Positions 14,223 to 32,097 of a stretch of 64,000 bases of DNA are shown here, piece by piece. The notes under the pieces are model-generated. The model was not told where the DNA came from. It saw only the letters and a list, made by a program, of their open reading frames with translations, and searched no databases. The DNA lies in the NCBI RefSeq assembly GCF_003096995.1, contig NZ_QENU01000006.1:1-64000 (forward strand), read 5' to 3'. Numbering within the stretch: the stretch's first letter is position 1; every line of letters starts with the position of its first letter. A program made the translations under genes and the position numbers. Origin of the DNA: Alitibacter langaaensis DSM 22999. GTDB lineage: Bacteria; Pseudomonadota; Gammaproteobacteria; Enterobacterales; Pasteurellaceae.

Positions 14223-14250
14223 AAAGGGCGGATGCAATTCGCCCTTTTAT
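14223..14250 (+). terminator. pyrE terminator
   Basis: AAAGGGCG (14223-14230) pairs with CGCCCTTT (14240-14247), followed by a T-rich stretch. Confidence 0.85.
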
Positions 14251-14296
14251 TTTTCACGAAAATTGCCTTTCAGTAACCTATTTTTCTCAAAGCCTT

Positions 14297-16061: not shown

Positions 16062-16133
16062 AATTTCTCCTTTTTTCTCGTGGTAGGATAGCATAAAATA
16101 TGGCAAAAATGACCGCACTTAAAAGGATAGTTT

Positions 16134-17636
16134 ATGAGCATTTATGAAATTGCACGCAACGCCAATGGCGATGTATTCGGTATTCACAGCAAAATGGCAA
16201 ACCGCCATGGTTTAATCGCAGGGGCAACGGGGACGGGGAAAACCGTGACCTTACGGAAATTAGCCGAAGCGTTTAGCGATGACGGCGTGCCTGTTTTCTT
16301 GGTTGATGTAAAAGGGGATTTATCAGGGCTTTGCCAAAAAGGGGCGTTACAAGGCAAAATTGCTGAACGTGTCGAACAATTTAATTTAGGCGGCGAGAGT
16401 TATCTAGCGGGCTATCCTGTGTCATTTTGGGATGTGTTTGGTACAACAGGCATTCCGTTGCGCACCACCATTTCTGAAATGGGGCCGATGCTGCTTTCTC
16501 GCTTATTAAATTTGAATGATACGCAAGAGGGGTTGTTAAATATTTTATTCCGTGTTGCCGATGATAAAGGTTTACTACTCATAGATCTCAAGGATTTACG
16601 CGCGATGTTGAAATATCTTGCCGACAATGCCAAAGCATTTCAACTGCAATACGGCAACATTTCTGCAGCCAGTGTGGGCGCCATTCAGCGTGCATTGCTT
16701 ACCCTTGAAAATGAAGGCGCGGATCAATTATTCGGCGAACCTGCGTTGAATTTAGAAGATTGGTTACAAACGCGCGATGGTCGTGGCGTGATCAATGTGC
16801 TCAATTCGGAAAAACTGGTTAACTCGCCGAAAATGTACAGTGCATTTCTGTTATGGTTAATGGCGGAATTATTTGAACGCTTGCCAGAAGTCGGCGATCC
16901 TGACAAACCAAAATTTGTTATGTTTTTTGATGAAGCACATTTATTGTTCGATGGCGCGCCGTCAGTGTTGGTGGAAAAAGTTGAACAAGTGGTACGCTTA
17001 ATTCGTTCCAAAGGCGTTGGAATTTATTTTGTTACGCAAAACCCATTAGACTTGCCTGAAACGGTGCTTGGTCAGTTAGGAAACCGTGTACAACATGCGT
17101 TGCGTGCATTTACACCACGCGATCAAAAAGCGGTGAAAACCGCGGCAGAAACATTCAGAAGCAATGCTGACGTGAATGTTGTTGAAGCCATTACAACATT
17201 AGGCGTGGGCGAAGCGTTAGTCTCATTCCTTGATGAAAAAGGCATGCCAACGCCTGTGGAAATTGCGATGATTTATCCGCCGAAAAGCCAGCTTACGCCA
17301 CTCACAGAAGAACAACGTCAAGCTTGGGCGCAAGATGATGAATTGTTCTCTCATTACAATGCTTATGTGGATAATGTTTCTGCCTTTGAAATGCTACAAG
17401 AACAAGCCAATCTCGATGCAGTGGCTGAACAGCAGGCAAAACAAGCCCAAGAGGAACAAGAAAATGGGCTCATTGGTAGTCTAAGCCGTATGATTTTTGG
17501 TAGCAAAAACCGTGGAGAGAAATTATCGCCAACCGAGGAAATTGTAAGTGGTGTGGTAAAATCCGTTGGACGTAGCATGCGCAGCCAAATCACCCGACAA
17601 ATTATGCGTGGCATTCTAGGCGCACTGAAGAAGTAA
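16134..17636 (+). CDS. yjgR: HerA-like ATPase YjgR (DUF853)
   Basis: This 500-residue protein has Walker A GATGTGKT at residues 30-37, Walker B FVMFFDEAHLLF in mid-protein, and the segment GIYFVTQNPLDLPETVLGQLGNRVQHALRAFTPRDQKAVK that is typical of the YjgR/DUF853 branch of HerA-FtsK ATPases. The tail (about 420-500) is Gln/Glu-rich and then basic. The cellular role is not known. The gene is single, with a USS immediately upstream (16110-16120) and a terminator after it. Confidence 0.9.
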   Translation: MSIYEIARNANGDVFGIHSKMANRHGLIAGATGTGKTVTLRKLAEAFSDDGVPVFLVDVKGDLSGLCQKGALQGKIAERVEQFNLGGESYLAGYPVSFWDVFGTTGIPLRTTISEMGPMLLSRLLNLNDTQEGLLNILFRVADDKGLLLIDLKDLRAMLKYLADNAKAFQLQYGNISAASVGAIQRALLTLENEGADQLFGEPALNLEDWLQTRDGRGVINVLNSEKLVNSPKMYSAFLLWLMAELFERLPEVGDPDKPKFVMFFDEAHLLFDGAPSVLVEKVEQVVRLIRSKGVGIYFVTQNPLDLPETVLGQLGNRVQHALRAFTPRDQKAVKTAAETFRSNADVNVVEAITTLGVGEALVSFLDEKGMPTPVEIAMIYPPKSQLTPLTEEQRQAWAQDDELFSHYNAYVDNVSAFEMLQEQANLDAVAEQQAKQAQEEQENGLIGSLSRMIFGSKNRGEKLSPTEEIVSGVVKSVGRSMRSQITRQIMRGILGALKK

Positions 17637-17646
17637 ATGAAATCAG

Positions 17647-17683
17647 CATAGTAGGCAGGATTAAATCTTGCCTACTATGTTTT
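17647..17683 (+). terminator. yjgR terminator
   Basis: CATAGTAGGCA (17647-17657) pairs perfectly with TGCCTACTATG (17669-17679), followed by TTTT. It may also stop ogl transcripts arriving from the other strand. Confidence 0.85.
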
Positions 17684-17721
17684 AGAGCTGTGAGCTGATT
17701 TGCTGAACTTATCTTTTTTGG

Positions 17722-18885
17722 TTAGTCTTTTACGACACTAATATCTGCGAGATAAATCGCTGGTTTTCCTTCAAAATCACTACCAAATAACACCGCAGAA
17801 TCATCTGGCGTAAATGATGGATGAGGATGTGTAATTTGGCGATCTCCATCTAACACCTTCCAAGATGAACTATGTTTAGCTAATTTAATGATCTTTTGTT
17901 TTTCAATGTTGAATAAATATAAAAACGGATCGTTTTCAATATTGTAGCTATGGCTATCTGCAACATCTACTGGCGAATCACAACCATCACCTATCAATAA
18001 ATTGCCATTAAAATTACTCATTAAATGTGAGCAAGGTGGCATTGTAATTAAACGAGTATTTTCCAATGTATTTGGATCGACACTGTAAATCACACGTTCT
18101 GTTTGCCCTTTAAAATAAGAAACATAAACCATTTTAGAACCATCAGGTACCCAAAATTCATGTGTGCAAGATTCACCTACTTGGTGTTCTTTAGCCTTGC
18201 GAATATTCGTTCCATATTCATTAATAAACCACATACGAGCATCGACTAAATCATGAGGACCTTCATGGCAGAAACCAATTACAGAATCATCAAACGGACG
18301 ATAAGTTGGATGGCCTAACCAAGTGTTGTCTTGGTGTACGACCTCTAATTCACCTGTTAAAATATTGACTTTAATTAAACGACAAGTTGGATTAGTGTGA
18401 TAAAACGCCTTAAATTTATCCCAATCCGTTAAGGGTTGCCAACAAGATTTTAAGATTTCAATACCAACTAATTTGGTACAATCAGAATTAGCTACCCATG
18501 TACCATAACCTTTCCAATTTTCATCTACCGTATAAATAATTTTTTCTTCTAATGTTTCAAGGTTTACTTGCCGCAATGTTAATTCATTTTTCACATAGAA
18601 AAACGACTTATCATCATGAGAAATAAATCCACCAAAAGTATTATCGCCCTTTCCTTCTGTTAATTGGGTGGCAATTTGTGTTTGCATATCCAGTAAATAG
18701 TAGTTTCGATTTCCATCAAAATCACCTGCAAACAATAACTTAGAACCATCTTTAGTAAAACATTTCTGATAAAAATAGTTACGATGACAGGTTATCTCTT
18801 TGGGTGTTAAACGTGTCACTTTAACTTGAGTATCTGAATCAATAAAAGATTCAAATGTAAATTGAATTTGCTTTCCTTTAGCCAT
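17722..18885 (-). CDS. ogl: Oligogalacturonate lyase (PL22)
   Basis: Ogl cleaves unsaturated digalacturonate and short oligogalacturonides in the cytoplasm to 5-keto-4-deoxyuronate. The 387 residues match the enterobacterial enzyme's length. The seven-bladed propeller's metal site is intact: His287 (CSHLM), His353 and His355 (THPHPSF), and His242 (CTHEFW) occupies the proposed catalytic-base position, the same numbering as I recall for the Yersinia enzyme. The frame opens at 18936, but MAKGKQIQF at 18885, after AGAGGTTAT, is the family start. It is the last gene of the PL9-symporter-ogl group. I found no exact USS in it. Confidence 0.93.
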   Translation of the reverse strand: MAKGKQIQFTFESFIDSDTQVKVTRLTPKEITCHRNYFYQKCFTKDGSKLLFAGDFDGNRNYYLLDMQTQIATQLTEGKGDNTFGGFISHDDKSFFYVKNELTLRQVNLETLEEKIIYTVDENWKGYGTWVANSDCTKLVGIEILKSCWQPLTDWDKFKAFYHTNPTCRLIKVNILTGELEVVHQDNTWLGHPTYRPFDDSVIGFCHEGPHDLVDARMWFINEYGTNIRKAKEHQVGESCTHEFWVPDGSKMVYVSYFKGQTERVIYSVDPNTLENTRLITMPPCSHLMSNFNGNLLIGDGCDSPVDVADSHSYNIENDPFLYLFNIEKQKIIKLAKHSSSWKVLDGDRQITHPHPSFTPDDSAVLFGSDFEGKPAIYLADISVVKD

Positions 18886-18912
18886 AACTATAACCTCTAC
18901 TTTTACGTACAA

Positions 18913-18944
18913 AGCAATAAATGGAGCTTTCCCCATTTATTGCT
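18913..18944 (-). promoter_or_regulatory. Intergenic stem-loop between the symporter gene and ogl
   Basis: AGCAATAAATGG (18913-18924) pairs perfectly over 12 bp with CCATTTATTGCT (18933-18944) around an 8-nt loop. There is no real T-run, so it may be a processing or stability element that sets ogl expression relative to the symporter. Confidence 0.5.
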
Positions 18945-18953
18945 AAGTTAACA

Positions 18954-20690
18954 TTATTTTACTTCTGCGCTACGTTTCAAGCCATATCCTACAGCAAAGA
19001 TCGCTAATGAACAGCATGCAAATAATACTCTTCCCCATAATGGATTTGGAATTAATATCATCAGGAATAAACCACCAGACATGACTGTAACCAATGTACC
19101 TAATTTTTTACGTTGCAAGCGATCAATCTCATCTTGACCTTCCTCAGCAACACATTCTGTATCTACATCATTAAAGAATTCAATACGTCTTTCTTTATTG
19201 CCATCTTTTTCTTCATTATAGAAAAGTGTGGTTAAGCAGAAGAAACCTGCTGTAAAGATTAAATGTGCAGCGATGGTAATAATCACTTTTAATTCTGAAA
19301 GTTCACGTTTGGTTAAATCATCCACGCCAAACCAACTTGCAACATATTCTGGCGTAAATACTTTTACTACAGACCACGAAACAAACATACCAAATAATAC
19401 CGTTGCCCAAGGCGCCCATTTAGGCGTTTTACGGATAATAATTGCTAAGAATAGTGGTACTAAAATTGGCGATTGCAATAATGTTGCGACTTGCATCATT
19501 AAATCAAATAAACTTAGATGTTTTAATGAGTTAAAGAATTGTGCCATTAAAATGACAAGGAAACCATTGACAACGCAAACGATCTGACCAACACGCAATA
19601 ATTCCTTATCATCAGCTTTGTTTTTACGCATAATAGGTGCATAGAAACTACGCACAAATACCCCAGAATTGCGATTTAATGCTGAATCCATAGAAGACAT
19701 TGTTGCGGCAAATAAGCCCGCCATTAATAGTCCAATAGTACCTAATGGCATCACATTTCTAGCAAAAACTAAATATACTGCATCAGATGCTTTTTTGCCT
19801 AATTGTGGATAAAGCGTCGCTGCTTCAGGATAGATAATTGCTGTTACCCAAGGAGGAATAAACCAAATAATTGTACCTATCAGCATTAATACTAAAGCAA
19901 AGATTGCTGCTTTACTTGCATTTTTAGAATCTTTCGCATTTAAAAAGCGATAAGAATCTTGCATGTTATTAATACTTTGTAATTGTTTTACTATAAAGAA
20001 TAGGAATGTACAGACTAAGATCAATGGATAATTCATATCAGGGCCTGATACAAATCCACCAGGGAAGCGAGAAATAATTTCACCAGGTCCACCAATGACA
20101 ACTAAACCCACAACAGCACAAGCCACAGAAATGACGGCTACAACTAACATCTGTACAAAATCTGATGCTACAACCCCCCAAGCGCCACTTAATAATGAAA
20201 TTAATAATACGGCAATACCAGTAACATAGATTGTCATAGTGATATCCGCCTCAAACACAGCTGAGGCAAAGACAGATAAACCATTTAGCCAAACACCTGC
20301 ATTAATCACACTAAGTGGGATAATAATCCAAGTAAAAAATTGTTCATTAGCTCTACCAAATCGACGACCCACTGCTTCAGTTGGCGTATCTACTCGCATT
20401 TGTCTAAAGCGTTTTGCAAAATACCAGTAAGCTGCAAGATATGCCACCATGTTACCAACAAATACAGCAATAACAGATAAGCCATCCGTAAATGCTTTAC
20501 CCGCGGCCCCTGTGAAAGTCCAAGCCGAGAATTGTGTCATAAATGCAGTACCGCCAACCATCCACCAAAGCATTTTACCGCCACCGCGGAAGTAGTCACT
20601 GGTACTATTACTTGCCATTTTTTTAAACAATAGACTGATCGCTACAATTACGCAAAAATAGCCAGCCATAACTAAATAATCAACATTCAT
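18954..20690 (-). CDS. Sodium:solute symporter (SSS family), probable oligogalacturonide importer
   Basis: This 578-residue inner-membrane protein has about 14 hydrophobic segments and the SSS family pattern, including FRGGGKMLWWMVGGTAFMTQFSAWTFTG (about residues 32-60) and GLLMAGLFAATMSSMDSALNRNSG. A hydrophilic stretch rich in Asp and Glu (about 480-545) precedes the last two helices. The start MNVDYLVMAGYF at 20690 follows GGAGAAAAAAC. It sits between an exported pectate lyase and a cytoplasmic oligogalacturonate lyase with its own KdgR-like box, so import of unsaturated digalacturonate or galacturonate is inferred. Substrate is not shown by sequence. Confidence 0.85.
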   Translation of the reverse strand: MNVDYLVMAGYFCVIVAISLLFKKMASNSTSDYFRGGGKMLWWMVGGTAFMTQFSAWTFTGAAGKAFTDGLSVIAVFVGNMVAYLAAYWYFAKRFRQMRVDTPTEAVGRRFGRANEQFFTWIIIPLSVINAGVWLNGLSVFASAVFEADITMTIYVTGIAVLLISLLSGAWGVVASDFVQMLVVAVISVACAVVGLVVIGGPGEIISRFPGGFVSGPDMNYPLILVCTFLFFIVKQLQSINNMQDSYRFLNAKDSKNASKAAIFALVLMLIGTIIWFIPPWVTAIIYPEAATLYPQLGKKASDAVYLVFARNVMPLGTIGLLMAGLFAATMSSMDSALNRNSGVFVRSFYAPIMRKNKADDKELLRVGQIVCVVNGFLVILMAQFFNSLKHLSLFDLMMQVATLLQSPILVPLFLAIIIRKTPKWAPWATVLFGMFVSWSVVKVFTPEYVASWFGVDDLTKRELSELKVIITIAAHLIFTAGFFCLTTLFYNEEKDGNKERRIEFFNDVDTECVAEEGQDEIDRLQRKKLGTLVTVMSGGLFLMILIPNPLWGRVLFACCSLAIFAVGYGLKRSAEVK

Positions 20691-20770
20691 AGTTTTTTCT
20701 CCAACAAGTTTTGCCATTGAAGTGCAATCTACCACATTGGAACACAAAAAAATGTGATCAATGTCAACTA

Positions 20771-20786
20771 TTTGAAACATCGTTTT
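20771..20786 (-). promoter_or_regulatory. Candidate KdgR operator upstream of the symporter gene
   Basis: TTTGAAACATCGTTTT matches the KdgR consensus AATRAAAYRNYRTTTY in 14 of 16 positions. It lies about 80 bp upstream of the symporter start, giving this gene a possible promoter of its own besides read-through from the PL9 gene. Confidence 0.65.
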
Positions 20787-20854
20787 ATTTTTATAAACTT
20801 ATTGTTTTGTATTTACATCATTATAGTTAAGTTTTAGACATATAGTTTAAAAAT

Positions 20855-20903: not shown

Positions 20904-23117
20904 TTAATGTAATAATGCTTGGATTTCTTTTACTTCTTTTAAGCCATCATTGGTTTCATAAAATGAGATATTACTTAATTTATACAATTTTTGCAGTGTT
21001 TCAGAATCTATTTTTGTGAGTTCTGGCGCCATTAAGAATTGATTGTCTTTTAGTTCACTGCCATTTACAACATCTATATATTTACTCTCTTGATAAAAGC
21101 GATAAGAGCGGTTATTAGTAAATACACCTTGTTTTGGTCCATTTTCATATGGGCTTTTTCTAAATAGGAAATTGAAGCGTTTATTATCAATCGCGACATT
21201 ATTATCAACAGTAAATGAACCTGGATTAAAGTTATCAGTAAACCCATCCATGTTATTTCTAAAAGCGAGATTATTTCTAATAATATGATTTACAGGTAAT
21301 CCTTCTCCGCCTAATTTAAAACCATTACCAATGGAAGCGCTCTTACTTTTCATCGTTAATGTTTGACCATTCATAAATGCAATGGAATCAGTAATTGTGA
21401 CGACACCGTTTGGACCATCTTCTACTTTATTGAATAAATCCCAACCATCATCAACATTATGGTGTGAAATGCAACGGATAAATGTGTTCCCTTCACCAAT
21501 CCGCATTTTAGCTGCAAATCCATCAGCATTAATCTGAGAATCATCCATATTATTAAAACTAATACTATCAGTAACTACATTATAGCTTGCCCATAACGGT
21601 CTACCAATTTTCTCTGGTGAAGTAATTTGAAAGCCTGTGTCTGGTGCGTCATGTGTAATAATATTGCGCAGGTTATTATGGCTACCTTGAACAATTAAAC
21701 TAGCTCCAGCTACTTCAAGATTTTCAATATTCCAGAAACTTGCTTTATGAAGTAGTTCACCGACAAATTTTACTTGTCCATCTATACCTTTTAGAGTTTT
21801 AAGTGCGGATTTTAAACCACTATTTTCTGAAGTAATTGTTGTAGGTGGATATTCTCCTGCTTGTAACTGAATAGTTCCACCAGGAGGCAACAATTCAAGT
21901 GCGGTTGATAAATTTAATGGTTTTTCTATTGAGCCATCACCAACAGTTGTGCCATTAGGTGCAACATACACGAGCATAGGGTCTTTCAATGTATGTTTTT
22001 CAATAATAATCTGTTTAGAAAAGTGGTTATCTTTAAGTTCAACACTAGGAATAAATTGTATAGATAATTCAGTTTTATCCTTATCTAGTTTTATTTTATG
22101 TGAAACATATTCACCAGCTTTTGTTAGTGGAGATTTAAAGATTTGCTTGCTTTCTTTTGATAGTATGTAATATCCATCATAATTTGAACGAGCCTGAAAT
22201 ACATAGTCATTACTGACTGTTTTATTATTTGATTCTAAGTTGACAACTAAAGGTAATGCTTTAGTAACAAATTTTGCTGGATTCACTTTCTTACCATCTG
22301 TCAATTTTAGATCAACATTCTCAACTGTCATTTTGGCATTACGAGAGGCAAAAAAGCCTAGATATTGTTTTTGAGCATCTTGATTTGCCAAAATACCAGT
22401 ATCAACTTTATCTAACACTTTTTTATATGTTTTACCGTCTTGAGTATAAGCAGCGACAAAACCTTGATCATTTTTCTCTAGTATCAATCTTAATACTTTA
22501 TCTTTGAATTCAACGCCTTCTACATAATCTTTTCTGGTTAATTTATTGCCAGCGGTTCCCCAGGGATCATTGATACCTTCACGATAAGAAGCATTAATAT
22601 TAACTTTCCCATTATGCTCCCTTGCATTGACACGTAGTAAATTCATCACCATATTAGATGCGGCTGGAAACTCTTCATAACCAACAGGTTGAGGTTCTGC
22701 TCGAGGTTTTCCAATAATATCGCGAACCATAATGCCAACACCTTCTTGTCTGTTTGGCTTCGCTCCCGTTTCAGGACCTAATTGTTCTAAATGAATATCC
22801 GCAGAAATCACAAAATTAGTATCAATTGGTAATTCTGTATAATAATAAGTTAACCCTTCATGAGAATTAGCTAATTTCCCACCACGACTTTCAATTGTAA
22901 ATTTCGGTGCTATAGCTCCCTCTTTTATAGGTTTGCCATCAACAGTTGTATGATTTATCCCAACTTTTTCAGGTAGAATTGTTGAACCAAAATTAAGATC
23001 TGTGGATTGACCAAAAGCAATGCTCTTCCATGTGAGAGTGCTAGGCTCAACAGATGCCATACTTGAAGTTGAAAATAACGCACAACAAAAAATTGATGTT
23101 AATGTTTTTTTAGTCAT
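20904..23117 (-). CDS. Exported pectate lyase, PL9 family (PelX-like exopolygalacturonate lyase)
   Basis: This 737-residue protein has a Sec signal peptide (about 1-22, MTKKTLTSIFCCALFSTSSMA), a jelly-roll-like N-terminal region (about 25-280), a linker domain, and a right-handed beta-helix from about 390. PL9 catalytic and calcium residues can be placed: Asp532, Asp556, Asp557 and Asp560 (VDDGWDLF) and Lys601 (NGFKLGG), with Asp spacing identical to that in Dickeya Pel9A as I recall it. Layout and length resemble Dickeya PelX, a periplasmic exo-lyase that releases unsaturated digalacturonate. The ATG at 23117 has AAGGAG. One exact USS lies at 21897-21905. Confidence 0.9.
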   Translation of the reverse strand: MTKKTLTSIFCCALFSTSSMASVEPSTLTWKSIAFGQSTDLNFGSTILPEKVGINHTTVDGKPIKEGAIAPKFTIESRGGKLANSHEGLTYYYTELPIDTNFVISADIHLEQLGPETGAKPNRQEGVGIMVRDIIGKPRAEPQPVGYEEFPAASNMVMNLLRVNAREHNGKVNINASYREGINDPWGTAGNKLTRKDYVEGVEFKDKVLRLILEKNDQGFVAAYTQDGKTYKKVLDKVDTGILANQDAQKQYLGFFASRNAKMTVENVDLKLTDGKKVNPAKFVTKALPLVVNLESNNKTVSNDYVFQARSNYDGYYILSKESKQIFKSPLTKAGEYVSHKIKLDKDKTELSIQFIPSVELKDNHFSKQIIIEKHTLKDPMLVYVAPNGTTVGDGSIEKPLNLSTALELLPPGGTIQLQAGEYPPTTITSENSGLKSALKTLKGIDGQVKFVGELLHKASFWNIENLEVAGASLIVQGSHNNLRNIITHDAPDTGFQITSPEKIGRPLWASYNVVTDSISFNNMDDSQINADGFAAKMRIGEGNTFIRCISHHNVDDGWDLFNKVEDGPNGVVTITDSIAFMNGQTLTMKSKSASIGNGFKLGGEGLPVNHIIRNNLAFRNNMDGFTDNFNPGSFTVDNNVAIDNKRFNFLFRKSPYENGPKQGVFTNNRSYRFYQESKYIDVVNGSELKDNQFLMAPELTKIDSETLQKLYKLSNISFYETNDGLKEVKEIQALLH

Positions 23118-23182
23118 AATCACTCCTTATAATTTGGATATACTCATATAATTGGCGCAATGTACCATAAAATTATTCATTA

Positions 23183-23204
23183 TTTTGAGATCTATGTCTC
23201 AAAA
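23183..23204 (-). promoter_or_regulatory. Inverted repeat next to the KdgR box of the PL9 gene
   Basis: TTTTGAGA-N6-TCTCAAAA is a perfect 8-bp dyad with the same 6-bp spacing as a CRP site (TGTGA-N6-TCACA) but with TGAGA/TCTCA arms. It abuts the KdgR box. It may be a weak CRP site or an operator for another regulator. Confidence 0.5.
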
Positions 23205-23219
23205 ATAAAACATTGTTTT
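23204..23219 (-). promoter_or_regulatory. KdgR operator upstream of the PL9 gene
   Basis: AATAAAACATTGTTTT matches the KdgR consensus AATRAAAYRNYRTTTY at all 16 positions. It lies about 90 bp upstream of the lyase start codon, where it could block the promoter until a pathway intermediate (KDG in Dickeya) releases the repressor. Confidence 0.82.
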
Positions 23220-23240
23220 GAATTTGCATTCACGAAAATA

Positions 23241-23648: not shown

Positions 23649-24287
23649 CTATTTGACTAAATCAAGCACTTCACGAACTAGGCGACCGATTTCATCCCAG
23701 TTTTGGTTAGAAATCAGCGATTTTTCCACAAACCATGAACCGCCACAGGCAATCACATTAGGGATAGCTAAGTAATCTTTAATATTAGCAGGTGAAATAC
23801 CACCTGTAGGCATAATTTCTAATTGAGAATAAGGGCCTAGTAACGCTTTAATCATTTTAACGCCACCTGACGCTTCAGCTGGGAAGAATTTTACTGCGGT
23901 GATTCCCATTTCTAATGCGGCTTCAATTGACATTGGGTTATTAATACCCGGTGTGACAGGAATTCCAAGTTGTTGACATAAACGAACGATATTTGGGTTA
24001 AATCCAGGGGTAACAATGCAATCGGCGCCTGCTTGTTTTGCTCTCACTACTTGTTCTGGCGTTAATACTGTACCTGCTGCAATGAGAATTTCAGGATTAT
24101 GTTGGCGCAATAATCGAATAGCTTCTTCTGCGGCTTCTGAGCGGAAAGTGATTTCAACAACAGGTAAGCCGTTTTCGCTTAATGTTTTTGCTAAAGGCAA
24201 AATATCGTCTGCACGATCTAAAGCGATAACAGGAACAACTTTTAACGCTCTTAATTTTTCAACAATTTGTGCTGTAGTATATTTCAT
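23649..24287 (-). CDS. eda: 2-dehydro-3-deoxy-phosphogluconate (KDPG) aldolase
   Basis: Eda splits KDPG to pyruvate and glyceraldehyde 3-phosphate, the last step of the pathway here. The 212 residues contain Glu45 (VVEITFRS) and the Schiff-base Lys133 (AVKFFPAEASGG), both at the family positions, and the phosphate-binding PTGGIS. It lies 9 bp downstream of kdgK and 9 bp upstream of kdgF, so it is operon-coupled. A genome-wide second eda for the Entner-Doudoroff route could exist elsewhere. Confidence 0.95.
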   Translation of the reverse strand: MKYTTAQIVEKLRALKVVPVIALDRADDILPLAKTLSENGLPVVEITFRSEAAEEAIRLLRQHNPEILIAAGTVLTPEQVVRAKQAGADCIVTPGFNPNIVRLCQQLGIPVTPGINNPMSIEAALEMGITAVKFFPAEASGGVKMIKALLGPYSQLEIMPTGGISPANIKDYLAIPNVIACGGSWFVEKSLISNQNWDEIGRLVREVLDLVK

Positions 24288-24296: not shown

Positions 24297-25235
24297 TTAA
24301 TTAAATTCTTGAACAAGGTGTGATGTGGCAGCTTTATCAATAATCGCACCTTTATGTTGGATAACAATTCCCGCAAGGCGATTCCCTCGTTGGCAACAAG
24401 TTATCAATGATCTATTTTGTAAATAACCATTAAAGAAGCCGGCATTAAATGCATCACCTGCTGAAGTGGTGTCAACGACAGATTCAACAATTTCAGTTGG
24501 CACATTGACAATTTCATCATTATGGCAACAAATTGCGCCATTTTTTCCTGATTTAACGACAATAGTTTCTATATTGTATTGTTTAAGGCGAGAGATTGTT
24601 TGTTGTTCATTTTCATCTTGCCAAACTAATTGTTCGTCATCAAAAGTAACTAAAGCCACGTCAACTAATGGTAACAAGGCTTGGTAACAGTTTTGGGTTT
24701 GTTGAAGATTATCCCATAAGGCTGGTCGATAATTGCTATCAAAGGCGATCTTAACCCCTGCTTTTTTTAAATCTGCTAATTGCTGGATGAATAAAGTGCG
24801 GTCATTTTCTGGCAAAATTGCAAGAGAAATACCACTCAGATAAATTACATCGACAGTAGATAATTGAGCTAATATTTCAGGGTAATTTTGATGTTGTAAT
24901 ACATAACGAGCAGCAGATTGATTTCGCCAATATAGAAAAGTTCTCTCACCAAATTTATCCAATTGGATAAGATATAATCCAGGCTGACGTGCTTTATCAA
25001 ATAATACCCAATCTGTTTTAATTCCGTCATTTTGCCAATGGGCTAACATTCCTTGGCTTAATTTATCTGTGCCGAGCGCTGAAATATAAGAAATTTCTAA
25101 TTGATTACCTTGGCTCACTCTGGCTAAATAAGTTGCTGTGTTTAATGTATCGCCGCCATAAGTTTGATGCATGCTCCCAAAGGGTTCCCCATTGAGTTCA
25201 ATCATGCATTCACCGAAGATTGCTATTTTTTTCAT
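24297..25235 (-). CDS. kdgK: 2-dehydro-3-deoxygluconate (KDG) kinase
   Basis: This 312-residue PfkB-family kinase phosphorylates KDG to KDPG. It begins KKIAIFGECMIELNGEPFGSMHQTYGGDTLNTATYLAR and carries the substrate segment PGLYLIQLDKFGERTFLYWRNQSAAR and the PfkB signature VDTTSAGDAFNAGFF with its catalytic Asp. An exact USS (24794-24802) is within the gene, showing long residence in this lineage or re-entry by transformation. It is separated from kduD by a 60-bp spacer containing a strong stem-loop. Confidence 0.93.
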   Translation of the reverse strand: MKKIAIFGECMIELNGEPFGSMHQTYGGDTLNTATYLARVSQGNQLEISYISALGTDKLSQGMLAHWQNDGIKTDWVLFDKARQPGLYLIQLDKFGERTFLYWRNQSAARYVLQHQNYPEILAQLSTVDVIYLSGISLAILPENDRTLFIQQLADLKKAGVKIAFDSNYRPALWDNLQQTQNCYQALLPLVDVALVTFDDEQLVWQDENEQQTISRLKQYNIETIVVKSGKNGAICCHNDEIVNVPTEIVESVVDTTSAGDAFNAGFFNGYLQNRSLITCCQRGNRLAGIVIQHKGAIIDKAATSHLVQEFN

Positions 25236-25295: not shown

Positions 25296-26051
25296 TTAAC
25301 GTGCTAACCAACCACCATCAACAGCGATTGTGTAACCATTCACATAATCACCCGCAGTTGAAGCTAAGAATACACAAGGACCTGCTAAATCATTTGGTGT
25401 ACCCCAACGTCCAGCTGGAATACGCTCTAAGATTTCTTTATTACGAGATTCATCTGCGCGCAATGCAGCAGTATTATCTGTTGCCATATATCCTGGTGCA
25501 ATCGCGTTGACATTAATATTATATTTTGCCCATTCATTCGCCATGGCTCGTGTAATACCCATTACCGCACTTTTTGATGCCGTATATGATGGAACGCGAA
25601 TACCACCTTGGAAAGAAAGCATTGACGCAACATTAATGATTTTACCGCCATTGCCTTGCGCAATGAATTTTTTCGCGACTAATTGAGAAAGGAAGAATAC
25701 AGTTTTTAAGTTAATATTAATAACATCATCCCAATCTTGTTCAGAGAAATTAATCGCATCTTCACGGCGAATAATACCTGCATTATTAACAAGAATATCA
25801 ATTTTGCCAAAAACATTAGCTGCTTTTTCAACAAGGTCTTCAAGCCCGTCTTGTTTCATTAAGTTTGCTTCAAGGTTCACAAATTTGCGACCAACCGCTT
25901 CAATTTTAGCTTTGGTTTCTAACGGTTCTACTAAATTAAGACCCACGATGTCACAACCAGCTTCCGCTAAGCCGACAGCCATTCCTTGACCCAAACCTGT
26001 GTTACAACCTGTTACAAGTGCTACTTTTCCAGTTAAATCAAATAAACTCAT
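25296..26051 (-). CDS. kduD: 2-dehydro-3-deoxy-D-gluconate 5-dehydrogenase
   Basis: This 251-residue short-chain dehydrogenase reduces 2,5-diketo-3-deoxygluconate (DKII) to KDG with NAD(P)H. The nucleotide-binding motif TGCNTGLGQG (residues 14-23), NNAG (89-92), and catalytic Ser143, Tyr156 and Lys160 (YTASK) are present. The frame opens at 26096, but MSLFDLTGKVALVTG at 26051, after AGGAGAATTCAC, fits the family. It is the first gene of the kduD-kdgK-eda-kdgF operon. The isomerase KduI, usually adjacent, is not in the window. An exact USS lies at 25564-25572. Confidence 0.93.
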   Translation of the reverse strand: MSLFDLTGKVALVTGCNTGLGQGMAVGLAEAGCDIVGLNLVEPLETKAKIEAVGRKFVNLEANLMKQDGLEDLVEKAANVFGKIDILVNNAGIIRREDAINFSEQDWDDVININLKTVFFLSQLVAKKFIAQGNGGKIINVASMLSFQGGIRVPSYTASKSAVMGITRAMANEWAKYNINVNAIAPGYMATDNTAALRADESRNKEILERIPAGRWGTPNDLAGPCVFLASTAGDYVNGYTIAVDGGWLAR

Positions 26052-26156
26052 GTGAATTCTCCTATAGAATATATGTATTAGAAATGACAAAAACATTATG
26101 CTAATGTTCCTGTTTTAAGCGCATCATACTCCAACAAAAAATACATTGCAATAATT

Positions 26157-26173
26157 ATGAAATAATATTTCAT
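26157..26173. promoter_or_regulatory. KdgR operator in the kduD-kdgR divergent promoter
   Basis: ATGAAATAATATTTCAT is a fully symmetric dyad (TGAAAT-N3-ATTTCA) with the geometry of the classical KdgR box TGAAAC-N3-GTTTCA. It lies about 110 bp from the kduD start and 90 bp from the kdgR start, so one site could control both directions, including autoregulation. Confidence 0.78.
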
Positions 26174-26262
26174 TTTTAAAACGGATATGAGTGAGTTTTA
26201 AAAATTAATCATTTGTGATAGTATGCAACCATTTATGATCTCAACACAAATCGCATATCAAC

Positions 26263-27075
26263 ATGGTACAGAATCCTATGGAAAAAGAAAATCAACCCGA
26301 GGCGGTTTCATCTGTATTAAAGGTTTTTGGTATTATTGAAGCCCTTGCAGAACAAAAAGAAATTGGCATTACGGATCTGGCTCAACGCCTTATGATGTCT
26401 AAAAGCACAACCTATCGTTTTTTACAAACAATGAGAACGCTAGGATTTGTTAAGCAAGAAGATGAAACGGAAAAATACAGCCTTACATTAAAACTCTTTG
26501 AAGTCGGTGCTAAAGCCTTAGAATATGTTGACCTTATTGCTTTGGCGAATCAAGAAATGTCATCTATCTCTAAGCAAACTAATGAAACGCTACATTTAGG
26601 CACCTTAGACGATTCTGAAATTATCTACCTACATAAAATTGACTCAAGCTATAACTTAAGAATGTACTCACGCATTGGGCGTAGAAACCCAATCTACAGT
26701 ACAGCAATTGGCAAAGTATTGTTATCAGGCTTGAGTGAACAAGAAATCACTGCTTTAATGGCGGATGTGACCTTTGTTAAACACACAGACAAAACCTTAG
26801 AAAATACATCTCAGCTCATTCAAGAAGTAGAAAAAGTCCGTCAGCAACATTTTGCTGAAGATAACGAAGAACAAGAGCCGGGTTTACGCTGCATCGCCGC
26901 ACCAATTTACAACCGTTTTGGTCGAATTATTGCCGGCGTGTCTATCTCTATCCCTACCATTCGTTTTGAAGAAAAAAAATTGCCTTATTTAGTCAATTTA
27001 TTACAAATTGCAGGCAAAAATATTTCAGAGCAATTAGGGTATCATGACTATCCAGCGCCTATTTCAATAGAATAG
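26263..27075 (+). CDS. kdgR: IclR-family repressor KdgR
   Basis: This 270-residue regulator has the N-terminal winged helix (about 16-75, recognition region LAQRLMMSKSTTYRFLQTM) and the IclR effector domain (about 90-265), with the family segments SAIGKVLL-type YSTAIGKVLLSG and EEQEPGLRCIAAPIYNRFG. KdgR of enterobacteria represses pectin catabolism and is released by KDG. Divergence from kduD, and KdgR-like boxes at this and two further promoters, support the assignment. Starts at 26263 or 26278 are possible. It is followed by a terminator, not by the PL8 gene as an operon partner. Confidence 0.9.
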   Translation: MVQNPMEKENQPEAVSSVLKVFGIIEALAEQKEIGITDLAQRLMMSKSTTYRFLQTMRTLGFVKQEDETEKYSLTLKLFEVGAKALEYVDLIALANQEMSSISKQTNETLHLGTLDDSEIIYLHKIDSSYNLRMYSRIGRRNPIYSTAIGKVLLSGLSEQEITALMADVTFVKHTDKTLENTSQLIQEVEKVRQQHFAEDNEEQEPGLRCIAAPIYNRFGRIIAGVSISIPTIRFEEKKLPYLVNLLQIAGKNISEQLGYHDYPAPISIE

Positions 27076-27149: not shown

Positions 27150-27327
27150 TCTAAGCTCTCGTTTCCACTATAAGTTTTATCCCCCCTTTCTTCAATTGCA
27201 ATTAAGCAAATACAAATCAAAACAAAGCTCGATAATGACTTCTTCTTATCAAGATCATCATAATTTAAGATAAATTGTGACCTATCCCGCAAAATATGAA
27301 ATTCCCCATACCAAACAAAATAAAATT

Positions 27328-27356
27328 TTACTAAAATCGAAAAGCTATTTTAGTAA
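27328..27356 (+). promoter_or_regulatory. Inverted repeat upstream of the PL8 lyase gene
   Basis: TTACTAAAAT (27328-27337) pairs perfectly with ATTTTAGTAA (27347-27356) around 9 nt. It ends 14 bp before the start codon, next to the ribosome binding site. It could be an operator or a leader hairpin that affects translation. Confidence 0.55.
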
Positions 27357-27370: not shown

Positions 27371-29749
27371 ATGAAATTTACACGTAGAAAATTTATTCTT
27401 GGTACAACTAGCTTAAGTTTGACCGCACTTTTTTGTTCATCCTTTGGCTTTGCGGCAACAACCAAGCTAACATCTTCGCAATACAGCGATTTATGTGAAC
27501 GTTGGGGAGATATTATTACGGGGCGTAAAAATATTGATCCGAAAGATCCACGTTATGCAAAAGCACTCGCTGGTTTAGATAAAAGAGTAAAAAATGTCCT
27601 TGATGATCTCATACTCGATGAAAATAGAACCTCTATCTTAAAATCCGCTAATCTCAGCGAAGAAAAATCCCCTTTTATTACCAAAACAGCAAGAGCCGCA
27701 TTAACACTGGCAACAGGTTGGGCAACACCAGGCTCTAGCTATTATCAAAACAATGAAATTCTGCAACAAAGTATCCAAGCCTTATCTGATTTTTTACGCT
27801 TAAGATACAACCCAAGCCAAGAGGAATACGGAAACTGGTGGGATTGGGAAAGTGGTGCATCGCGTGCTGTGGCGGATATGATGTGCTTGCTCCATAAAGA
27901 ACTTCCAGCTGATGTGATGAATGCTGCCGCGCTTGGCATTGATCATTTTGTGCCAGATCCTTGGTATCTAAGAACGCAAAAAGCCTCTGGCTCATCTCAT
28001 AAAGAAAACGATAAAATCATTTCGACGGGGGCAAATAGATTAGATCTTTCAAGAGCGGTAATTTGCCGAGCCCTAGCCTTGCCAGACAAGGCTAAAATAC
28101 AGCACGCCTTATTGGGATTGTCGGCAACATTAACTATTGTTGAACAGGGTGATGGCTTTTACAAAGATGGCTCTTTTATTCAACATACCTCGATTCCTTA
28201 CACAGGATCTTACGGTGATGTGCTGATCGGCGGTTTAGCCATGCTATTCAGCTTAGTCAGTGGCAACGAATTTAATATTCCTCAGCAACAATTAAATGCG
28301 GTTTACTGGGCGGTAGATGAAGCATTTATTCCAACCATCATTAATGGGCAAGTGCTTGATAATGTAAGAGGGCGCTCGGTATCTCGTTATACTGAGCCGG
28401 GCTCTCTGCACGGTGCATCCATTATGAAAGCAATTTTACAATTGGCAGAAAAAGCACCGCCTGAAATATCCAACCGTTGGTACAATTTAACGAAAAGCTG
28501 GATTGAACAAAATAATTATAATCGCATTACGGATAACAATTCTCTCACTTACTTAGCATTAGTGATCCAAGCGCTAAACCACGCCTCAGGCTCGCCAATA
28601 AAACAAACCTCTAAAATGTTTAGTTCTATGGATAGGCTCGTGCATCGCACCAATAACTGGAGTGCCTCTATTGCAATGTGTAGTAACCGCATTGCTTGGT
28701 ATGAATGTGGCAATCAAGAAAATGAATGGGCGTCACGCACAAGCCTTGGTATGCGTTATCTCTATTTACCTAATGATATGGGGCAATATGAAGACGCATT
28801 CTGGCCTACACTCAATTATAACGCACCTACTGGCACCACAGTTGACACCACACCTCTTGTGCCTAAAGTTGCTGGAGAATGGGGGCATAGCACACCACAA
28901 AATGAGTGGACAGGCGGGCTAACGCAGGGTAATTTCTCTCTTGCCGCCATGCATCTCTTAAGCCCAGACGGTGATTTACACGCTCGCCGTTTCTGGTTTG
29001 GTACACCTGATGCAATAATTGAGTTTGTTGCAGATATCCATAGCAGCCAAGATGCACTAACCGTTATCGAACACCGTAACTTAGGTGAAAATAATTCTTC
29101 TGCCCATTGGGTGATCGATGGCAAAACGTTCAAAGAAAAAACCGCACTTGAGAATACAAAATGGGCATATTTAGACGGCGTTGGAGGCTATCTATTTTTA
29201 ACACCGCAACAAATTGAAGCTCAAATAGAACAGCGACAAGGTTCTTGGCTGCATATCAACCCTGCCCGCAAAGGGAAAGAAGCTGAAAAAGAACATAAAC
29301 GTCTATGGGCAACCCTACACACTTCGCATAAAAACCAAAATAATGCCGCTTGGGTCATCATTCCAAATGCCGATTTAAAAGAAATGGACAATATCGCCAC
29401 AAAATTCGGTGCGGAAACCAAACTTCTCCAAAATGATGCTAATGCACAAGTGCTCAAACAGGGGAATATCACTGCGTGGGCAGTGTGGAAAGCGGGTAAA
29501 TATGCCGATTGGTCTTTTGAACAGCCAACCATTGCACTGGCAAAAGCAGAAAACCAAAATGTTTACCTCACTTTAGCAGAGCCAACACAAAAACGGCAAA
29601 ACATTAAATTAAGCCTACCTGGCGAGTGGAAACTGGCTGCTTCCAATAACAAAGCCAAACTCAATATCGTCAATGGCAGCACACATTTAAGTATCAACAC
29701 ACAAAATCTGGCGGGTCAAAGTATAGACTTACAACTAATACGCCGATAA
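27371..29749 (+). CDS. Tat-exported polysaccharide lyase, PL8 family (hyaluronate/chondroitin lyase type)
   Basis: The 792-residue protein begins with a twin-arginine signal (TRRKFIL at residues 4-10, then a hydrophobic stretch to FGFA near 28). An alpha/alpha-toroid (about 40-400) and beta-sandwich domains (about 420-780) follow, the PL8 layout. Catalytic residues fit: Asn222 (TGANR), His272 (FIQH), Tyr281 (YTGSYG) and Arg335 (VRGRS); the spacing equals Asn349/His399/Tyr408/Arg462 of the S. pneumoniae hyaluronate lyase as I recall it. PL8 enzymes cut hyaluronan, chondroitin or xanthan; the sequence does not tell which. A USS (27422-27430) encodes Thr-Ala-Leu of the signal peptide; another lies at 29141-29149. 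Confidence 0.88.
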   Translation: MKFTRRKFILGTTSLSLTALFCSSFGFAATTKLTSSQYSDLCERWGDIITGRKNIDPKDPRYAKALAGLDKRVKNVLDDLILDENRTSILKSANLSEEKSPFITKTARAALTLATGWATPGSSYYQNNEILQQSIQALSDFLRLRYNPSQEEYGNWWDWESGASRAVADMMCLLHKELPADVMNAAALGIDHFVPDPWYLRTQKASGSSHKENDKIISTGANRLDLSRAVICRALALPDKAKIQHALLGLSATLTIVEQGDGFYKDGSFIQHTSIPYTGSYGDVLIGGLAMLFSLVSGNEFNIPQQQLNAVYWAVDEAFIPTIINGQVLDNVRGRSVSRYTEPGSLHGASIMKAILQLAEKAPPEISNRWYNLTKSWIEQNNYNRITDNNSLTYLALVIQALNHASGSPIKQTSKMFSSMDRLVHRTNNWSASIAMCSNRIAWYECGNQENEWASRTSLGMRYLYLPNDMGQYEDAFWPTLNYNAPTGTTVDTTPLVPKVAGEWGHSTPQNEWTGGLTQGNFSLAAMHLLSPDGDLHARRFWFGTPDAIIEFVADIHSSQDALTVIEHRNLGENNSSAHWVIDGKTFKEKTALENTKWAYLDGVGGYLFLTPQQIEAQIEQRQGSWLHINPARKGKEAEKEHKRLWATLHTSHKNQNNAAWVIIPNADLKEMDNIATKFGAETKLLQNDANAQVLKQGNITAWAVWKAGKYADWSFEQPTIALAKAENQNVYLTLAEPTQKRQNIKLSLPGEWKLAASNNKAKLNIVNGSTHLSINTQNLAGQSIDLQLIRR

Positions 29750-29878: not shown

Positions 29879-31000
29879 CTAAGCTAACAGTTTATTAATA
29901 GCGTTTAGTACTAAATGATATTTAGGTATCACAGAATCTATTAGCATATATTCTGTTTTTGCATGCATATTACCTCCAATTGGACCTAAGCCATCAATAG
30001 TCGGGCAACCAGCTGATGATGCTACATTCCCATCACTCAATCCACCAGCATCAACCCATTTCAAAGGATAATTTAATTCTTGTGCAGCTTCAGCAAATAC
30101 CGATTTAATCGTTGGTAGATTCACTTCGTCAATCATAGGTGCTTCGCTATTAATTAACACTTTCTTACTTGTTACTCCTTCAACAAAAGAGTGAGTCAGT
30201 AATTGTGCTAGTTTATCTTCAAAAAATGCAACAGATTCAGGATATTTGTAACGCATTTCGATAGTTAATGAAGCATAATCTGCAATTATATTATGTGCGG
30301 TTCCCCCATTCTTCATAACGCAATTAAAGGTATGCTGACGCTCAAAGTCATTATATTTTGAAAATTCAACAATGAAATTTGCCGCCTCAACTAGAGCAGA
30401 ACGTCCTTTTTCAGGGCAATTTCCTGCATGGGCAGCAATGCCAAAGAATTCAACATCATAGGTAACTAAACCTTTTCGGCTTGCTACCATTGATCCATCT
30501 TCGCGTGCAGCTTCCATAACAAAACAATATTTTGCCTTGCGCGCATACTCTCTGATACTCTCTTTCGCATACATGGAACCAATTTCTTCATGAGAATTGA
30601 GATAAATCGCAACATTGTATTTGCTTAAGTCTAAGGCTTGTATAATAGAAAAAGCCAATAAGCCACCAGATTTATCGTCAATTACACCCAATGCATTGAT
30701 CTGATTTCCTTCAATATTGAAAGGTACTGATTGCCCTGTTCCAACGGGAAATACGGTATCCATATGTGCAACAAATAAAATATCAAATTTCTCTGCCTGC
30801 AAATTATTACTAATTAAAAGACAATCTGCTACTTTATCTGTATTCATTGGAATTTTTCGATATTGCAACCCCTGTTTTTCCGCTTTTTTTATAAACCAAT
30901 TTGCTACCTGATTGACACCGTCAATAGAATAGCTTGGGCTTTCAATTTCAGTGAGTTCTTTTAATTCAGAAATAAATTGGGATAAATGTTGTTCATTCAT
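29879..31000 (-). CDS. M20-family metallopeptidase (glutamate carboxypeptidase-like)
   Basis: This 373-residue protein has the two-zinc M20 pattern: His79 (VAHMDTVFP), Asp108 (VIDDKSGG), Glu138/Glu139 (HEEIGS), Glu163 (VMEAARED) and a late His in NMHAKTEYM. A lid domain lies at about 175-290. It resembles carboxypeptidase G2-type enzymes that remove a C-terminal residue or split dipeptides. It has no signal peptide, so it acts in the cytoplasm. It is 9 bp downstream of a YjiG/YjiH-type membrane pair, suggesting that those genes handle its substrate or product. Exact substrate unknown. Confidence 0.85.
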   Translation of the reverse strand: MNEQHLSQFISELKELTEIESPSYSIDGVNQVANWFIKKAEKQGLQYRKIPMNTDKVADCLLISNNLQAEKFDILFVAHMDTVFPVGTGQSVPFNIEGNQINALGVIDDKSGGLLAFSIIQALDLSKYNVAIYLNSHEEIGSMYAKESIREYARKAKYCFVMEAAREDGSMVASRKGLVTYDVEFFGIAAHAGNCPEKGRSALVEAANFIVEFSKYNDFERQHTFNCVMKNGGTAHNIIADYASLTIEMRYKYPESVAFFEDKLAQLLTHSFVEGVTSKKVLINSEAPMIDEVNLPTIKSVFAEAAQELNYPLKWVDAGGLSDGNVASSAGCPTIDGLGPIGGNMHAKTEYMLIDSVIPKYHLVLNAINKLLA

Positions 31001-31009
31001 ATTTCCACC

Positions 31010-31462
31010 TTAAATAATAAATTTCATTACAAACATTGCTAAATAAGCATTGATCATACAAATACCAAATAGCACTAAATAATGTTTTCCCGGCACACCT
31101 AACACACCTAGAACACGCCCCATATATTGTACAGTGGAGCCAACTAAAGCCATTCCTGGTAATAAAATAGCAATATCTGATGCAGACAAAGAACCCGCCT
31201 GAACAAGTGCAACCAAAACACCGGCTGCGCCACCCCAACTCAGAAATGCAGCAAGAAACACTGCGATGGATTCACCTGGTAATCCAAGTGGTGCCATAAT
31301 AAACCCAACATATTCACCTAATAGTTTTAATAACCCCGAGGTATTTAGGATATAAATAATCACAAATGCCATTAATACATTTGGAATTGTACTATGAATA
31401 GCAATATTCCAACCTTTTCTTGCACCGTCAATAAAAATATCAGTGATTAATTTATTGCTCAT
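31010..31462 (-). CDS. yjiG: YjiG-like membrane protein (nucleoside-recognition/Gate domain)
   Basis: This 150-residue protein has four to five hydrophobic segments and the Gate-domain motif LGLPGESIAVFLAAFLSWGGAAGVLVAL, related to spore maturation protein B. In E. coli yjiG and yjiH lie beside the dipeptidase gene iadA, and here they lie beside an M20 peptidase, so a transport role for peptides or an amino acid product is plausible but unproven. Its start overlaps the yjiH stop by 4 bp. Confidence 0.8.
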   Translation of the reverse strand: MSNKLITDIFIDGARKGWNIAIHSTIPNVLMAFVIIYILNTSGLLKLLGEYVGFIMAPLGLPGESIAVFLAAFLSWGGAAGVLVALVQAGSLSASDIAILLPGMALVGSTVQYMGRVLGVLGVPGKHYLVLFGICMINAYLAMFVMKFII

Positions 31463-32097
31463 ACAACCCCCTCATCTTCTTTAACAAATTTGCTCACATA
31501 TAGACGCATTAAATTTGCCCCAAATATTTTAAATAGCAAAATTACGCCAAGACACATTGCAACTGAAACAGGAACAGACATTCCATTTTTATCAGTTAAA
31601 AGTAATAGTGGAGCAAAAGAAGCAAGAAAATTAGTGAGCATTGCACCTGCACTAAATTGGAAAGCTGCAAAAATTAGTAATTCTTTATAAGTAATTTTAC
31701 CTTCATCATATAAGGATTTTGTTGTAGAGCTCCCTGCATCAGTGCTTTGTGTACTCGCAATAAGAGAAATTGAACAATTTCCAGGTATGCCAATTAAAGG
31801 TTTTAAGATAGGGCTTAACCATTTAGATGCGGCAGCTAATGCACCAAAATGTTCAAAAATTGCAACAAATCCTAATGCAAGCATGACACTTGGCACTAAG
31901 GTTAGGGCAAATAAAAAACCACCTTTGGCACTTAAACCACCAGATGTTTTTAACCATTCAGGAAATTGCCCTGTCAGTTTACCAAAATCAAAAATCCCAC
32001 CTAAAAATTCCTTTGCGAATCCACCAAAGAAGATAATGGCGCAAATCAATGATATTGTTCCAACGAGCAGTGTTTTTAAACGAATGCCTTCTTTCAT
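31459..32097 (-). CDS. yjiH: YjiH-like membrane protein (nucleoside-recognition/Gate domain)
   Basis: This 212-residue protein has about five membrane segments and the Gate-like motif LIGIPGNCSISLIASTQSTDAGSSTTKSLYDEGKITYKELLIFAAFQFS. It forms the partner half of YjiG; together they look like the two halves of a spore-maturation AB-type membrane protein. It is the first gene of the yjiH-yjiG-M20 operon, with AAGGAGTATGT as ribosome binding site and a CRP box about 60 bp upstream. Confidence 0.8.
   Translation of the reverse strand: MKEGIRLKTLLVGTISLICAIIFFGGFAKEFLGGIFDFGKLTGQFPEWLKTSGGLSAKGGFLFALTLVPSVMLALGFVAIFEHFGALAAASKWLSPILKPLIGIPGNCSISLIASTQSTDAGSSTTKSLYDEGKITYKELLIFAAFQFSAGAMLTNFLASFAPLLLLTDKNGMSVPVSVAMCLGVILLFKIFGANLMRLYVSKFVKEDEGVV

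Follow-up and report, generated by a model that had tools for sequence, protein, structure and literature searches.

The streptococcal cluster for the use of glycosaminoglycans (GAGs), as laid out in the available text of two reports (PMC6045597, PMC6837340), consists of genes for a hyaluronate lyase, UGL, DhuI, DhuD, KdgK and KdgA together with a phosphotransferase system (PTS). According to the same partial sources, this PTS imports the unsulfated disaccharide (PMC6837340), and the unsaturated uronates derived from GAGs and from pectin are an identical compound (PMC6045597). Here we describe a stretch of 64,000 nucleotides from Alitibacter langaaensis DSM 22999 (contig NZ_QENU01000006.1, positions 1 to 64,000; hereafter called the window), wherein a gene for a polysaccharide lyase of family PL8 adjoins the repressor gene kdgR and a group of pectin genes. 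The streptococcal-type set of lyase, PTS, hydrolase, isomerase, dehydrogenase, kinase and aldolase is complete in this genome, and is split between the window and another contig, C2.

We consider it probable that the window gene encodes an active GAG lyase that is exported by the twin-arginine translocation (Tat) system and that feeds a shared KduD-KdgK-Eda route, and that KdgR represses the genes for GAG lyases in addition to those for pectin use. This reading builds on what the sequences contain, which includes the genes themselves, the division of single-copy genes between two loci, the co-occurrence of lyase and hydrolase across genomes, and the enrichment of a KdgR motif in front of PL8 genes.

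The PL8 lyase and its signal peptide

The window PL8 gene is full-length, and in a profile search of the window open reading frames (ORFs) all three PL8 Pfam domains score above their cut-offs. These are PF08124 (E 3.7e-82), PF02278 (E 1.5e-51) and PF02884 (E 6.7e-5), the last being a narrow pass at 23.7 versus a cut-off of 22. The best solved match is the Cutibacterium acnes hyaluronate lyase 8fnx (E 5.5e-230, residues 38-791), and the chondroitin AC lyase 1rw9 is matched at E 2.7e-150. Weaker matches are to a lyase of Streptomyces, to hyaluronate lyases of streptococci and to xanthan lyases (6f2p, E 6e-61; 2e24, E 1.2e-56). The residues Asn222, His272, Tyr281 and Arg335, to which an earlier reading of the sequence alone had drawn attention, are present and are invariant in all 16 proteins of our alignment, which holds 16 of the 33 proteins used in the tree described below. 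The Trp156/Trp157 pair and Glu450 are likewise invariant (16/16). The protein scores 371.8 bits with the HylB equivalog NF053732 (HyalteLyHylBENTFA), below the cut-off of 1350; it is a member of the same broad family as HylB, but is not that named enzyme. By type, it is nearer to a hyaluronate/chondroitin AC enzyme, in contrast to the C2 cluster described below, whose main diet would be chondroitin.

The same matches bear on another proposal, namely that its substrate is a polysaccharide made by plants or microbes, such as a xanthan-like acidic glycan, and that the whole window is a plant-glycan locus. PL8 does include xanthan lyases, whose structures are among the matches, and the gene has pectin genes as neighbours. 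However, the matches to a hyaluronate lyase (8fnx) and to a chondroitin AC lyase (1rw9) are much stronger, and the genome carries four PL8 genes (three besides the one in the window), GalNAc-type genes and sulfatases. We regard a plant-glycan locus as very improbable.

The guanine-cytosine content of the gene (42.6%) is near the window mean (41.3%) and above that of the pectin neighbours (33.6-40.1%), so that composition neither shows nor excludes a foreign origin. Two copies of AAGTGCGGT, which we take to be the Haemophilus-type uptake signal, lie inside the PL8 gene at window positions 27422 and 29141. The window as a whole contains 65 uptake signals of this type versus one of the other type.

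The N-terminus of the protein, MKFTRRKFILGTT, is a twin-arginine signal with the motif TRRKFI, in agreement with the sequence-only reading, and no lipobox is visible in it by eye. TatC is encoded in the genome at C1:173497, as found in a search aimed at TatC. An RR-x-F-L signal is present in all 10 clade relatives of the window PL8 and in none of the other 20 PL8 loci of the tree, one of which has RRRAV instead. This distribution makes Tat export look like a feature of the clade, and the signal, TatC and the clade relatives together support Tat export of the window PL8. The periplasm is the most likely site of action, since this is where the Tat route ends in a diderm cell.

A GAG cluster on contig C2

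The sequence-only reading had noted a PL8 lyase without the GH88 hydrolase that its products normally need. There is indeed no such gene in the window, but the genome (1.99 Mb in 29 contigs) contains one match to PF07470 (GH88/GH105), located at C2:229886-230890 and scoring 244 bits versus a cut-off of 26.6. Thus, this genome-wide search rules out that the hydrolase is truly missing. The suspicion that the genome lacks a hydrolase, sulfatases and a disaccharide-type PTS fell in the same way, since all of them were found when the genome was searched.

The hydrolase gene is part of a GAG cluster that spans C2:222.9-234.5 kb (locus L049). This cluster encodes a Tat-signalled sulfatase, KbaZ (PF08013), an AgaS-like SIS-domain protein, PTS components IIB, IIC, IID and IIA, the PF07470 hydrolase, a DhuI-like isomerase of the RpiB type, a radical-SAM/SPASM protein and a second sulfatase. 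The IIB component is of the N-acetylgalactosamine (GalNAc) type, narrowly above the cut-off (NF008508, 184 bits versus 180), and IIC and IIA are named by gene order and appearance. Both sulfatases carry the C-x-P-x-R motif by reading, and the radical-SAM/SPASM protein is presumably of the sulfatase-maturing kind; PF00884 matches the genome nine times, this family being wider than sulfatases. Uptake of an unsulfated disaccharide by a PTS fits the presence of an exported sulfatase in this cluster, and the GalNAc-type genes suggest that chondroitin is its main diet. Farther along C2 (locus L051) a DeoR-type regulator, a NagA-like amidohydrolase and a LacD/DeoC-family aldolase are encoded, as is KduI (NF002091, 411 bits versus a cut-off of 250). 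The binding protein of a TRAP transporter is found there as well. The isomerase has its best solved matches in 3ono (E 7e-101), in 2ppw and in the S. agalactiae structure 4u8e (gbs1892; E 4e-76), the last of which we take to be DhuI.

Some results weigh against assigning this cluster to GAGs. The IID component falls below its own NCBIfam equivalog cut-off, and the hydrolase and the sulfatases reach none. Moreover, the top solved match of the hydrolase is the unsaturated rhamnoglycuronyl hydrolase 4ce7 (E 8e-65), presumably a GH105 enzyme, followed by 5noa (labelled family 88; E 2.7e-50), and the streptococcal UGL is matched at E 5e-4. Because the protein is nearest to 4ce7 and 5noa and remote from UGL, it is best written as GH88/GH105, and its role in GAG use is taken from gene context.

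Two loci that complete one predicted pathway

Copies in the genome were counted for Eda, KduD, DhuI and KduI. The only Eda match and the only close KduD copy are both in the window, the next relative of KduD being 41% identical. The DhuI and KduI families have one match each, and both are on C2 near the GAG cluster. Thus, the two loci complete each other. In four relatives (G002 of the same genus, G029, G072 and G023) the kduD operon has the order eda-kdgK-dhuI-kduD, and here there is no room for a dhuI-like gene between kdgK and kduD. Among the matches, kdgR-kdgK-eda adjoins the GAG cluster in four genomes of another genus (g15), and kduD lies within the GAG cluster in G038 (g15). Since GAGs and pectin yield one and the same unsaturated uronate, there is good support for a shared KduD-KdgK-Eda route, and with the single Eda and the one close KduD in the window the convergence that the sequence-only reading had put forward gains weight.

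PL8 (PF02278) is found in 9 of the 149 genomes, the source genome included, with 19 genes in total. Relatives of the C2 hydrolase (E <= 1e-10) are found in 12 of the 149, namely the same nine and three from other families of the order, of whose relatives one is close (61%) and the other two are remote (29%). The nine PL8 genomes are the only Pasteurellaceae among the 149 with a close relative of the C2 hydrolase. This distribution is relevant to the view that the lyase is not for nutrition but for spreading through tissue, a role described for bacterial hyaluronate lyases in the available text of PMC5620648. Against such a view, a route for uptake and breakdown of the disaccharide is present in the genome, the hydrolase accompanies PL8 in 9/9 PL8 genomes, and the Tat signal indicates a periplasmic enzyme. 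We therefore consider a lyase for spreading improbable, and note that both roles could coexist.

KdgR-like sites in front of PL8 genes

The neighbour of the PL8 gene proved to be kdgR by its profile match (Table 1), as had been read from the sequence. A scan of the window with the KdgR consensus, allowing up to 3 mismatches, gave 21 matches versus a shuffle mean of 18.9. This plain consensus scan was set aside as uninformative, since its counts are near those of shuffled and reversed controls, and because it was unspecific a weight matrix was built from relatives. The best site upstream of each of 30 kdgR genes was taken, and, with the source genome left out, 18 of the 29 relatives' sites (at most 2 mismatches) were kept for a symmetric matrix, which leans towards the consensus because it is trained on best-matching sites. 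By this matrix the top three window sites are those at kduD/kdgR, the symporter and pelX, and ranks 4 and 5 both fall within 60 bases before the PL8 gene; 6.45 matches scoring at least 9.14 are expected per window by chance.

The test on which we rely takes the 220 bases directly upstream of each of the 19 PL8 genes (180 bases for the one gene near a locus edge), and involves no post hoc choice of region. Ten of these 19 regions score at least 9 and seven score at least 11. Matrices with permuted half-sites gave means of 0.93 and 0.41 at these thresholds, and reached the observed counts in 0 and 1 of 1000 permutations. A variant based on 17 transcription units found 12 at the lower and 9 at the higher threshold (0 and 2 of 1000 permutations). 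It uses the region before the porin in G076 and G019 and takes the C10 gene from its signal-peptide start, post hoc choices that favour the result, and it leaves out the G054 and C8 genes. In an earlier test, 18 PL8 genes were set against 299 others (Mann-Whitney p 0.0003); this background contained porins and the symporter, along with genes whose promoter is shared with a likely target. As a control, 27 PL8 loci from other phyla (L005-L031) gave a top upstream score of 10.8, with a single locus above 9. This control is a weak one, since those genomes have a different base composition and each region was counted back from the match start instead of the gene start. Related genomes are not independent, and so the true weight of the enrichment is below what the counts suggest.

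In the three Spirabiliibacterium genomes (L002, L003 and L004) the top site of each 22-kb locus directly precedes PL8, with scores of 18.1, 14.7 and 18.1. In all three, PL8 is on another contig than kdgR and has no gene of the uronate and GAG reference set near it. The palindrome of these sites is kept where much, but not all, of the flank varies, and the KdgR recognition helix is identical between the window protein and those of Spirabiliibacterium. A site scoring 19.2 precedes the PL8 gene on contig C10 of the source genome (from its signal peptide), and another, also 19.2, precedes its relative in G076; a site before KduI scores 16.7. The gap between the Tat-sulfatase and KbaZ genes has a site of 11.2-13.1 in the source genome and in four g15 genomes, and near it is a conserved TGTGA-N6-TCACA element, which we take to resemble a CRP site.

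Several results count against KdgR control. Genome-wide, the plain consensus is unspecific, with 71 matches versus 53 for the reversed pattern, and one of its two best matches lies inside a mutM-like ORF. Of the 10 positives, the promoter of the window PL8 has the lowest score (9.39; shuffle p 0.06; empirical p 0.087). Nine of the 19 PL8 genes have no site, including all four genes of the abc2 type and the abc1 gene of G038. A good site is absent from the kdgR promoters of the three Spirabiliibacterium genomes (3/3), and two Tat-sulfatase promoters of that genus scored just 4.7 and 7.5. When compared with all other locus genes, even the strong PL8 sites reach an empirical p of 0.03-0.04 at best, a floor that arises because this background holds real or shared targets.

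On balance, the sites support KdgR control of GAG lyases in three genera of Pasteurellaceae, most weakly at the window PL8, for which such control is nonetheless likely. In the available text of the literature on KdgR and GAGs we found no link between KdgR and a GAG lyase, and the 2004 paper on the KdgR regulon by Rodionov and colleagues may mention one.

In another genome of the same genus (G002), strong KdgR-like sites of 24.6 and 19.0 are found at positions 10617-10677 of locus L138, between a porin gene (PF13609) and a trpB-like gene and beside kdgR, suggesting that this porin may be under KdgR control.

Origin of the lyase

In a tree of 33 proteins, the window PL8 groups with the three Spirabiliibacterium genes (support 99/98), and these four nest in an 11-member clade (100/100) whose other seven members are from Corynebacterium, Actinomyces and Cutibacterium. 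The window PL8 thus belongs to an otherwise actinobacterial clade of Tat-signalled PL8 proteins. The loci for the tree came from a pattern search, so that remote members are under-sampled, and the tree program flagged long branches and a composition that is uneven among the sequences. No gene of the uronate and GAG reference set was found near PL8 in the nine clade relatives examined (L002, L003, L004, L005, L006, L008, L009, L010 and L012, with L007 left out). In these neighbourhoods PL8 is thus not part of a fixed cluster with uronate or GAG genes, and they do not count against the arrangement seen by the sequence-only reading. In one of them, L009 of Cutibacterium namnetense, genes for a LacI-type regulator and for an ATP-binding cassette (ABC) transporter come after PL8 (13597-18215), and this transporter is possibly the uptake route for PL8 products there.

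These findings lend something to the idea that PL8 is an independent, horizontally acquired gene that came to lie next to kdgR by chance and is unrelated to KdgR. The five other genomes of the source genus that were listed (G001-G005) have no PL8, the same type of PL8 is found among unrelated genes in relatives, the clade is otherwise actinobacterial, and the sites in the window PL8 promoter are weak. However, KdgR-like sites precede PL8 in 3/3 Spirabiliibacterium genomes although the gene is off the kdgR contig, and the best window sites after the three pectin operators are the two in front of PL8. A chance neighbour is accordingly unlikely in our judgement, though less so than the alternatives weighed above.

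Proposed pathway

For the shared route under KdgR, we infer the substrate, the location, the repression of the window PL8 and the flux as follows. The lyase would fold in the cytoplasm and be exported by Tat, with hyaluronan, and probably low-sulfated chondroitin, as its substrate. In the periplasm it would cleave imported GAG oligosaccharides to unsaturated disaccharides, where the Tat-signalled sulfatase would strip sulfate. The GalNAc-type PTS of C2 could then bring the disaccharide in, and the PF07470 hydrolase could split it. The amino sugar might be used by the AgaS-like protein, the NagA-like amidohydrolase, KbaZ and the LacD/DeoC-family aldolase. The unsaturated uronate would pass through the DhuI-like isomerase or KduI to the window enzymes KduD, KdgK and Eda, yielding pyruvate and glyceraldehyde-3-phosphate. 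2-Keto-3-deoxygluconate (KDG), an intermediate common to the breakdown of pectin and GAGs, would release KdgR, which in Pasteurellaceae would repress GAG-lyase genes besides pectin genes.

We lean, by a small degree, towards the broader view that KdgR of Pasteurellaceae is a general sensor of unsaturated uronates (via KDG) that governs host-GAG lyases together with pectin genes, into which an actinobacteria-derived lyase has been wired. Pectin could then prime these cells for the sugars of connective tissue, and vice versa. The puzzle of the missing hydrolase is removed, and in its place stands a link, wherein a single repressor and a common set of cytoplasmic enzymes may serve both plant pectin and animal GAGs within one bacterial family. 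If KdgR does repress PL8 lyases, then pectin and host matrix are read via the same metabolite, and KdgR, which is known from plant pathogens, is also a regulator of host-matrix degradation.

Features of the window and other PL8 genes

The features of the locus are collected in Table 1. From its context, the symporter would take up uronates or oligogalacturonides. Downstream of PL8 on the other strand (29879-32097) are genes for an M20 peptidase and for a pair of small membrane proteins (PF07670 Gate in one), with no visible tie to uronate use.

Table 1. The PL8 gene, neighbouring uronate genes and predicted KdgR sites (window coordinates)
Feature	Position	Strand	Basis or comment
PL8 polysaccharide lyase, hyaluronate/chondroitin-AC type	27371..29749	+	792 aa; Pfam, structure matches, alignment
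Twin-arginine signal peptide, ~29 residues	27371..27457	+	cleavage site placed by eye
kdgR, IclR-family repressor	26263..27075	+	NF011671, 447 bits, cut-off 275
kduD, 2-keto-3-deoxygluconate dehydrogenase	25296..26096	-	longest ORF; true start probably internal; sole close genome copy
kdgK, 2-keto-3-deoxygluconate kinase, PfkB family	24297..25235	-	profile match and synteny
eda, KDPG (2-keto-3-deoxy-6-phosphogluconate) aldolase	23649..24287	-	single PF01081 match in genome
pelX-like exo-pectate lyase	20904..23123	-	NF041903, 655 bits, below its cut-off 1490
Sodium:solute symporter	18954..20780	-	judging from L138, true start probably at 20690
ogl, oligogalacturonate lyase	17722..18936	-	PF14583
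KdgR operator (predicted) between kduD and kdgR	26156..26174		score 23.5; rank 1 in window
KdgR operator (predicted) upstream of symporter-ogl	20771..20789		score 20.2; rank 2 in window
KdgR-like site upstream of pelX	23204..23222		score 14.1; rank 3 in window
Weak KdgR-like site immediately upstream of PL8	27336..27354		score 9.39; rank 4 in window
Further weak KdgR-like site before PL8	27314..27332		score 9.14; rank 5 in window

The source genome (G000) has a second PL8 gene of the same broad type on C10 (L050, 3299-6608), which carries a C-terminal extension of about 300 residues. The extension has the look of an outer-membrane barrel, with no Pfam match at E <=0.1, and our guess is that the protein might be an autotransporter. 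Its signal peptide and lyase domain are in different frames, where those of its G076 relative (L055, 7161-10484) are in one. A chondroitinase-ABC-like PL8 of 1017 amino acids is encoded on C3 (L151, 5386-11635), downstream of an autotransporter (705 amino acids, PF03797) and an outer-membrane barrel protein, and these genes possibly form one operon for the breakdown of GAGs at the cell surface. In three genomes a porin gene (PF13609) immediately precedes an ABC-type PL8 gene (L150 of the source genome, C8, 254-4320; L165, 2234-6356; L169, 3016-7249). In L165 and L169 a KdgR-like site precedes the porin (12.2 and 21.0), and so porin and PL8 may form one unit there.

Comparison with known systems

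The window PL8 is most similar to HylA and HylB of Cutibacterium acnes (8fyg, 8fnx), which it matches over residues 38-791. In the available text of PMC10697930, the HylB triad is Asn222, His272 and Tyr281, numbered identically to the residues of the window PL8. Two Cutibacterium relatives also carry an RR signal, but the window PL8 sits in a Gram-negative cell, where Tat leads to the periplasm. As counted along the alignment, and as far as the accessible descriptions of these enzymes go, Gln449 occupies the position of Ser452 in HylA and Gly448 in HylB, and with a different residue at this position the product pattern of the window PL8 is not readable from its sequence.

A haloarchaeal PL8 resembles the window enzyme in its predicted Tat/SPI signal and in a proposed horizontal origin from actinomycetes, according to the available portion of PMC13260240. 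The same portion places these Tat-signalled lyases in other hosts and on plasmids, and they are absent from the sample of our tree. PL8 enzymes with reported GAG activity are also described from gammaproteobacteria, namely Yersinia sp. 298, Citrobacter freundii and Vibrio alginolyticus (PMC9105423, PMC9265501, PMC8222515).

Like the streptococcal cluster, C2 groups PTS EIIA-D with a uronyl hydrolase and a DhuI-like isomerase. Unlike that cluster, the hydrolase is just remotely similar to UGL, KduD, KdgK and Eda are encoded in a pectin locus, and sulfatases and GalNAc-type genes are added. With the pectin KdgR regulon of gammaproteobacteria, as partially available to us, the window shares KdgR, kduD-kdgK-eda, a PelX-like lyase, Ogl and operators that resemble the published consensus. 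It differs from this regulon in that promoters of GAG lyases also bear the motif.

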